A stretch of DNA of 5,170 nucleotides, taken from assembly GCA_021202325.1 (NCBI GenBank), contig JAJQDF010000074.1:1-5170 (forward strand), read 5' to 3'. Numbering within the stretch: position 1 is the first letter of the stretch; each line of letters begins with the position of its first letter. This document shows, in pieces, positions 1-1,537 of the stretch. The DNA comes from Clostridiales bacterium. GTDB lineage: Bacteria; Bacillota; Clostridia; Lachnospirales; Anaerotignaceae. The notes beneath the pieces were generated by a model. It made no database searches, was not told the origin of the DNA, and saw nothing but the letters and a program-made list of their open reading frames with translations. Position numbers and translations under genes: made by a program.

Positions 1-455
1 GTTCCAGATACATCAATAACTTCCAAAGATAAATCGACATCTTTTGTAAAAGTATAATTCTCTATATCAAGTGAGAATTCTTCAGAAGCAGAGCCTCCAA
101 CATTACATGGAATAGTTATTGTTTCTGAAATATCCTTTTTCCCATTACTTATTCCATAAATGCCATAGTCACTATATGTTCCCATAATTTGTACTGTAAC
201 TTCAACATCATTGTAGTTAAAATTAGTCGATGCTCCTGAAATCTCCACTCGACAAGTGATTGCATCATAGAAATTAAAAGAGTAACCACTAAATGCTACT
301 GCATTGCCTCCAGCCTGATAACCTCCATCAACCACTAAATACTGTGTATAGTTATCAACATTCAGTTCAATAGAGTTATCAGAAGCACTTCCTTGACAGC
401 CAGTAAAAGTAAATAATACCACAATAATACAGCACAAAAAAGCCTTTAATTTCAT
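1..455 (-). CDS. Putative surface lipoprotein, 3' end outside window
   Basis: I do not recognise a named family. The 151 visible residues begin MKLKAF, followed by a hydrophobic stretch (about residues 6-17) and a lipobox-like FTGC with the lipidated cysteine at residue 20. This is a type II signal peptide, so the mature protein should be anchored to the outer face of the membrane. The mature part is Ser/Thr/Asn/Tyr-rich, with alternating polar and hydrophobic residues suggesting beta strands, and has Cys68 and Cys117, which could form a disulfide. A segment around residues 29-42 (SIELNVDNYTQYLVV) resembles a motif I associate with small Firmicute lipoproteins. The start ATG has AGAAGGG about 7 bases upstream, inside the end of the HTH gene, whose stop is 3 bases away, so translation is probably coupled. 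The frame is open to the left edge and the C-terminus is missing. It would be the surface output of the invertible promoter described at 732-837. No function is assigned. Confidence 0.8.
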   Translation of the reverse strand, partial: MKLKAFLCCIIVVLFTFTGCQGSASDNSIELNVDNYTQYLVVDGGYQAGGNAVAFSGYSFNFYDAITCRVEISGASTNFNYNDVEVTVQIMGTYSDYGIYGISNGKKDISETITIPCNVGGSASEEFSLDIENYTFTKDVDLSLEVIDVSG

Positions 456-458
456 ATT

Positions 459-635
459 TCAACCCTTCTTCGATATTTTTTCTAATACTTGATATACTTC
501 TTTTTCTGAAATATGCCAAGGTTTCCCTTTTCCATCTTGTGTTGCTGTTTTAAATATGCCCTCTCTGCACCATCTTCTAACAGTTTCCTGAGAACAATTC
601 AAGATTTCTGCCGCCCGGCTTGTTCCAATATCCAC
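459..635 (-). CDS. Small excisionase-like helix-turn-helix DNA-binding protein
   Basis: This 58-residue protein starts at GTG and ends with TGA. It reads VDIGTSRAAEILNCSQETVR, then RWCREG, a basic turn GKGKPWHIS, and a final helix EKEVYQVLEKISKKG. The order helix, turn, recognition helix (SQETVRRW, about residues 15-22), then a short wing (about 33-43) is the pattern of the excisionase/MerR-like HTH_17 domain, and the length is normal for a stand-alone domain. GTG is chosen because AAAGGA lies 7 bases upstream and an in-frame TGA precedes it closely; the nearby ATG is in another frame. It is 3 bases upstream of the lipoprotein gene and downstream of the inverted repeats. Such proteins act as recombination directionality factors or transcription regulators. 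Here it could bias the neighbouring recombinase or regulate its own operon; both roles are inference. Confidence 0.8.
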   Translation of the reverse strand: MDIGTSRAAEILNCSQETVRRWCREGIFKTATQDGKGKPWHISEKEVYQVLEKISKKG

Positions 636-648: not shown

Positions 649-701
649 CAAATAGAATATAGCATAATTTGCGTTTTACGACTTTTCTAGAATTGAATAC
701 T

Positions 702-731
702 ATTGTTATAATAGTGTACTTTTTTGTAAAT
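702..731 (-). repeat. Left recombination site (inverted copy), one half degenerate
   Basis: Bases 713-731 are the exact reverse complement of 838-856 (19 of 19). Extended to 30 bp and aligned to the right site, the inner half and the central dinucleotide (GT at 716-717, the complement of AC at 852-853) are identical, while the outer half (702-712) matches poorly. A conserved inner arm, a conserved centre and a divergent outer arm fit a crossover site whose inner arms are exchanged by inversion. Assignment to the adjacent serine recombinase is inference. Confidence 0.65.
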
Positions 732-837
732 GATAATATATCGTAAATAAGCCATTATTTTTGTAACTTTTCGCTTATTTCTTGTTGAAAAATATAGAGA
801 ATTGTGTTACTATTACTTTGTGTATAATAATTGGATT
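732..837. other. Candidate invertible promoter segment (106 bp)
   Basis: This A+T-rich segment between the two inverted sites contains no gene. It carries a convincing promoter on the plus strand (785-813) and only weak promoter-like matches on the minus strand. In the orientation given, the promoter points away from the HTH-lipoprotein genes. If the segment flipped, it would point leftward at the HTH start about 70-100 bases from the segment end. The layout matches invertible promoters known from gut bacteria: short segment, inverted repeats, outward promoter, recombinase gene next door. Switching is inferred, not seen. Confidence 0.6.
785..813 (+). promoter_or_regulatory. Sigma-A-type promoter inside the invertible segment
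   Basis: TTGAAA at 785-790 is a good -35 box. After 17 bases comes TACTAT at 808-813, preceded by TG plus one base at 805-807, giving an extended -10. Transcription would start near 820 and run rightward over the right site and antisense through the 3' end of the recombinase gene. A second possible -10, TATAAT at 823-828, has only a poorly spaced partner (TTGTGT at 802-807, 15-base spacer). Confidence 0.6.
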
Positions 838-867
838 ATTTACAAAAAAGTACACTTTATTGTAAAT
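838..867 (+). repeat. Right recombination site: 30-bp imperfect palindrome
   Basis: The 30 bases start ATTTACAA and end TTGTAAAT. Compared with its own reverse complement the element matches at 26 of 30 positions; the only mismatched pairs are positions 9/22 and the centre (15/16, AC at 852-853). Small serine recombinases bind as dimers to dyads of about this length and cut at a central dinucleotide, so a non-palindromic AC would give the site polarity. It begins 12 bases past the recombinase stop codon. Its left 19 bases are repeated, inverted, at 713-731. Confidence 0.7.
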
Positions 868-878
868 AGTACCACTCA

Positions 879-1537
<659 letters not shown>

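Follow-up and report, generated by a model that had tools for sequence, protein, structure and literature searches.

A predicted recombinase-flipped promoter switch with stepped site spacing in a Clostridiales bacterium and its relatives

The window, a stretch of 5,170 nucleotides from a Clostridiales bacterium (assembly GCA_021202325.1), is an entire contig (C110; JAJQDF010000074.1) of a fragmented genome of 1.86 Mb in 313 contigs that is 83% complete. Its minus strand codes, in this order, for a Cys/Met PLP enzyme, a sodium:alanine symporter, a homocysteine S-methyltransferase, a serine recombinase and, past an inverted repeat, an HTH_17 protein and a lipoprotein-like protein. No transposase was found among the six window genes scanned. 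The HTH_17 protein (459-635, minus strand) has 58 amino acids, a GTG start and a match to PF12728 (2.8e-10), as expected from the small HTH protein proposed in a previous sequence-only reading of this DNA. It shares 75% identity with two near homologues of 55 amino acids. The lipoprotein of that reading holds in part: the product of the frame at 3-455 (minus strand) has a lipobox-like N-terminus, called by a simple script rule, and the contig end truncates its C-terminus. Two weak homologues, each 162 amino acids long, end about 9-11 residues past the cut.

The recombinase (879-1484, minus strand) is a small serine recombinase of 201 amino acids and a predicted invertase. The frame is intact, in agreement with the complete enzyme claimed before, and matches PF00239 (4.5e-29) and the DNA invertase family phrog_125 (1.6e-53). 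R9, S11, R69 and R72 are among the residues invariant in an alignment of 29 sequences, and all are kept. The nearest solved sequence is Sin (2r0q, 4.7e-29). A structure model (mean pLDDT 81, pTM 0.56) has three C-terminal helices and gives its best fold match to the gamma-delta/Hin chimaera 2gm4; the match to 2gm4/1gdt spans 191 columns. In this model the C-terminal part is a helix-turn-helix DNA-binding domain; no Pfam HTH family matches it. Sequence and predicted fold thus group the enzyme with gamma-delta, Hin and Sin. Its score to NF009949 (master invertase Mpi) is 53.2 bits, to be read against a family cutoff of 272.

Matches to the recombinase at E <= 1e-3, many of them distant, are found in 43 of 60 genomes, including its own. 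The best 80 of at least 581 confirmed stretches in a genome scan were kept; their titles are mostly Lachnospiraceae, Oscillospiraceae or other Clostridia, with one Gastranaerophilales, and a scan of viral contigs gave 12 stretches. Among these best 80 the enzyme of Merdimonas faecis is 89% identical, while two genomes of the window's own genus have recombinases with 64-68% identity and a third gives no match. In three same-genus genomes the recombinase does not follow the S-methyltransferase, and two of them have a secreted-type protein in its place. GC3 is 0.505 in the recombinase gene against 0.34-0.38 in the three metabolic genes. The foreign-looking composition and the absence from this position in the same genus suggest that the recombinase was probably acquired. 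A contig end of the same genome (G000:C194:5-100, L034) holds a second, partial copy: a stretch of 34 residues with one stop that shares 88% identity with the recombinase. Before the recombinase start, TTGTAAC and GTTACAA are inverted at 1508-1514 and 1531-1537 around a TATA-rich stretch and could be an operator. Further on, a perfect hairpin of 15 bp (1555-1596), bordered by runs of A and T, may terminate transcription in both directions between the recombinase and the metabolic genes; it is absent from the output of a terminator scan of 400-1700.

Past the 3' end of the recombinase gene, AGTGTACTTTTTTGTAAAT is found at 713-731 (plus strand) and at 838-856 (minus strand), identical at 19/19 positions and separated by 106 bp (732-837). 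This confirms the perfect inverted repeat of the sequence-only reading, together with its central dinucleotides GT (716-717) and AC (852-853). Among 300 simulations of the window with a first-order Markov model, none produced a perfect inverted repeat of at least 15 bp with arms within 400 bp. The repeat extends imperfectly to 698-734 and 835-871 (37 nt, 81%), which we describe as two putative crossover sites. Site 1, proximal to the recombinase (835-871), is near-palindromic and has its GTGTAC core on the minus strand, 23 bp past the recombinase stop and in the place occupied by the family pairs described below. Site 2 (698-734, plus strand) is inverted relative to site 1, at a core-to-core distance of 136 bp, and its outer half is degenerate, as in relatives. 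Dyad scores are 9 for site 1 and 5 for site 2 out of 10, with a range of 3 to 10 for site 2 among relatives. A scan of the window for family sites with up to 4 mismatches returned the two sites and one further match that overlaps one of the two. Res sites in direct repeat with accessory subsites, characteristic of the Sin/Tn3 resolvases, are not found: the window sites are inverted. The rest of the genome gave no convincing further site, with 4 matches at up to 3 mismatches for the whole genome against 6 for the reversed control; of the 4, two are the known sites, a third overlaps a known site and the fourth lies at C14:555-572. A second place in this genome that came from the pattern scans described below, G000:C307 (119 bp), overlaps the start of an open frame that we take to be a thymidylate kinase and was read as chance.

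The segment between the arms carries TTGAAA and TACTAT at a spacing of 17 bp, the latter preceded by TG (785-813, plus strand). The extended -10 promoter claimed for the segment is thus present as a consensus match, and in the usual place of the family. The bare match is unremarkable: 400-1700 has 5 promoter-like sites against 4.3 +/- 2.4 in shuffles. The site scores 10.6 against 7.3 on the other strand, and its -10 lies at 0.66 of the segment. Among 65 distinct segments of the family the -10 falls at 0.60-0.69 in 46 and the spacer is 17 bp in 56; the median observed best promoter score is reached by 1.8% of shuffles. All these calls are consensus scores, and the shuffles keep single-base composition only. 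The window site faces the recombinase and has the HTH and lipoprotein genes at its back. As it aims at the recombinase 3' end, we predict that the orientation seen here is OFF. The best score points toward the recombinase (OFF) in 44 of the 65 segments and toward the distal gene (ON) in 12; 9 are ambiguous. A weak promoter-like TGCTATATT at 656-664 (minus strand) lies outside the segment and could act as a fixed promoter of the HTH gene.

The same layout is found at many homologous recombinases. An exact GTGTAC core past the recombinase with an inverted GTACAC partner is present at 49 of 81 loci (the best 80 of at least 581 stretches, plus the window). A wider rule was applied to 131 of 141 homologue matches, 10 being dropped for a 3' flank shorter than 180 bp, and gave an inverted core pair in the same place at 68. 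The cores are GTGTAC (62), GTACAC (3), GTATAC (2) and GCGTAC (1). Repeats lost where the genes are kept had been named beforehand as an argument against the switch; at these 68 of 131 homologues the inverted pair is present, its core being identical or related to that of the window. Because the rule searched an interval that began 15 bp ahead of the recombinase stop and ended 75 bp beyond it, the closeness of site 1 (10-53 bp) is partly by construction. The other 63 matches have no pair by the script rule; inspected by eye, some have variant cores (GTGTAG/CTACAC in L055, GTGTAC with GTACGC in L108) and others none visible. Homology to the recombinase does not, therefore, imply a switch. The rule also misses real pairs, since L141, L143 and L144 have one by pattern scan only. 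The locus set is redundant, with identical segments in L145/L050, L146/L080 and L058/L061 and 99% identity in L064/L071. The first two couples may be the same organisms; the last two bear different organism names. L058 and L061, titled Ruminococcus turbiniformis and Lactonifactor longoviformis, are 98.8% identical over 7.65 kb around the recombinase, and recent transfer of a larger element is possible. The GTATAC cores of L106 and L123 are fully palindromic and their central dinucleotide would lack orientation. L087 has three cores past its recombinase, of which two are direct and one is inverted; the distances to the last are 116 and 229 bp.

Comparison of related loci reveals segments in opposite orientations, the flipped form that the earlier reading had suggested looking for. 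The segments of L086 and L104, with cores 148 bp apart and immediate flanks 95% identical, match at 231/234 bases after flipping against 130/234 before. For L040 and L042 the values are 187/213 and 121, with flanks 81% and 90% identical, and the segments of L039 and L041 are also reversed relative to L042. A reversal over 99 bp is seen between L073 and L077, which share 93% identity on the side of the recombinase but have no match of the distal flank, so their cargo differs. L049 and L050 are reversed at 75% identity. The breakpoints of the reversed segments coincide with the GTGTAC core. Clustering of segments at 62% identity or less merged nearly everything and carried no information, hence pairs near 70% were not used as evidence of inversion. 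These comparisons argue that the recombinase family inverts its segments in nature; they concern the family, the window locus being represented by one copy in one orientation.

The core-to-core distances of 63 segment clusters are stepped: 113-116 bp (12 clusters), 125-128 (9), 134-139 (35) and 147-149 (4), with 156, 187 and 229 bp once each. No cluster has a distance of 117-124, 129-133 or 140-146 bp, and 60 of the 63 lie within 113-149 bp. L009 (187 bp) and L087 (229 bp) have alternative pairings at 220 and 116 bp. For the 61 clusters below 160 bp, with the two longer distances left out, the phase concentration R(10.5) is 0.77, a value reached in 0 of 5000 smooth-null draws at each of three bandwidths; the uniform-null test agrees. 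Thinning by recombinase identity leaves p of 7e-6 below 85% (24 members), 2e-4 below 80% (19) and 0.005 below 75% (11). The best-fitting period is 11.1 bp, not 10.5. Steps of this kind would result if a short loop had to close on whole helical turns, and we infer that they suggest a demand of this kind on loop closure. The stepped spacing is the new element here, not found described in the literature searched.

Three pattern scans of 391 genomes, not started from the recombinase and covering 83-175 bp, found the real pattern in 5, 12 and 2 places against 2, 3 and 9 for the reversed control. Only the 114-144 bp range is thus enriched, and a match that stands alone can be due to chance. Of the 19 places, 11, several of which repeat loci counted already, lie in loci with a recombinase homologue, and 10 of the 11 fall within the spacing bands. 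The exception (L142:1501-1637) is a pair at 131 bp, which falls outside the bands and lies 5' of its recombinase; this segment, upstream of the recombinase start, might control the recombinase itself. L151:1501-1644 (138 bp) and L140:1501-1652 (146 bp) have no recombinase in the fetched stretch and a family recombinase elsewhere in the genome. These two pairs are possible targets in trans, or chance. The other six places without a homologue (96, 96, 99, 107, 111 and 119 bp) are off the bands and may be chance.

The HTH protein had been proposed to be excisionase-like and part of the system. It is found in none of the other recombinase loci collected (tblastn, E <= 0.01), and among 60 genomes searched at E <= 1e-8 only in the window's own; a search of viral contigs for relatives of its homologue P0005 found none. 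A shared excisionase role was therefore rejected, the switch needing no such partner, and the HTH protein is better read as neighbouring switched cargo, like the lipoprotein-like protein. Cargo was sampled at other loci by scanning the gene downstream of the switch in 54 of 56 listed loci, two near-duplicates being left out; a script chose the genes and their starts, and some of these choices may be in error. Among the 25 families listed out of 46 found by Pfam in these 54 genes are MmeI methyltransferase domains (4), Eco57I (3), cytosine methylases (2), SNF2-type helicases (2), BrxA (1), the acyltransferases MBOAT (2) and Acyl_transf_3 (2), BspA-type leucine-rich repeats (2) and S-layer domains (1). 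By eye, Pfam and PADLOC, restriction-modification or defence-type genes follow site 2 in L039, L044, L064, L069, L073, L074, L077 and others; being downstream of a switch, they may be phase-variable. As the neighbouring genes differ between loci (restriction-modification, surface, lipoprotein), recombinase and segment behave like a portable unit; this varied cargo and the base composition of the recombinase suggest that the two move as a cassette.

We privilege the hypothesis, with high confidence, that the window holds a recombinase-flipped promoter switch for the HTH and lipoprotein genes. The recombinase would bind the two inverted GTGTAC-core sites, cross over at the central GT and flip the roughly 106-bp segment between them. 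In the ON orientation an active segment promoter would drive the HTH and lipoprotein genes; in the present, predicted OFF orientation it would face the 3' end of the recombinase's own gene. The bound sites would synapse directly across a short DNA loop near whole helical turns, as the stepped spacing suggests. The invertible promoter of the sequence-only reading is thus kept for its anatomy and for the reversal in relatives, and amended by the predicted OFF orientation and by the HTH protein as cargo. The window copy would still flip. Alternatively, it could have been a switch once and now be locked OFF, the outer half of site 2 being too degenerate to support synapsis; the lower dyad score of site 2 and the one orientation seen would fit, and yet similar site 2 scores are found where segments are reversed (L086 4, L104 7, L040 5, L042 7) and the recombinase frame is intact and conserved, which makes a locked copy rather unlikely.

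Two further readings dispense with promoter switching or make inversion secondary. That the recombinase resolves or excises a mobile element, the repeats being its binding subsites or the element ends, draws on a catalytic domain closest to Sin among solved structures and on a foreign-looking, probably acquired gene. We consider this very improbable: the sites are inverted and not direct, no transposase is among the window genes scanned, segments are reversed and not missing between the related loci compared, and the promoter-like site is similarly placed in most segments. The repeat could also be a transcription device, operator or hairpin, with inversion incidental or absent. Site 1 is near-palindromic and its minus strand folds at -9.1 kcal/mol (z -2.46, equalled by 5 of 200 shuffles); however, no U-run follows the hairpin by eye, the only terminator in the scan of 400-1700 is elsewhere than the repeat, and hairpins leave the reversed segments and stepped spacing unexplained. 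This reading is the least credible of all. The recombinase-flipped promoter accounts for the locus as one of a known kind, an invertible promoter, in a compact serine-recombinase layout with stepped spacing.

Invertible promoters of gut bacteria, reportedly described as invertons by Jiang et al. in 2019, as cited in PMC11868660, share with the window inverted repeats around an intergenic promoter or, in the window, a promoter-like site, a recombinase nearby and surface-type genes downstream. The Sin and gamma-delta/Tn3 resolvases (2r0q, 1gdt), closest to the window recombinase in solved sequences and folds, resolve direct repeats with accessory sites, whereas the window has two simple inverted sites. 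Mpi of Bacteroides, which carries out promoter inversion, is likewise a serine-type recombinase of the invertase kind; unlike Mpi, the window recombinase adjoins its own site pair. Hin and Gin share the small serine recombinase fold, inverted sites and inversion of the DNA between them. Control of Hin depends on an enhancer bound by Fis, which lies about 100 bp from hixL (PMC3798978); in the window family the entire core-to-core distance is 113-149 bp in nearly all clusters. The Clostridia group that PMC11892184 links most strongly to an invertase, group 139, goes with a tyrosine-type recombinase, and the main text of that paper has no word beginning with "serine"; the window differs from these invertons by its serine-type recombinase and stepped spacing. 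No serine-recombinase cassette with such a site or spacing was found in the literature searched, where subscription coverage is thin, and its absence from print is not claimed.

A broader picture is tentative and, taken whole, rather doubtful: a portable, enhancer-free promoter switch would have spread through Clostridia, acting by direct synapsis over a loop of 11-14 whole helical turns. In OFF the same promoter would fire antisense through the recombinase gene and lower the enzyme, making OFF self-stabilising, and the surface or phage-defence genes plugged in would become phase-variable. If the stepped spacing does reflect direct synapsis, the family would offer a natural series of spacer lengths for testing how serine recombinases join sites across loops that do not exceed about the DNA persistence length. 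With one gene and about 170 bp, the layout is compact and could be used as a genetic switch in commensal Clostridia. Judging from the cargo of the relatives, promoter flipping may phase-vary restriction-modification and other defence-type genes.
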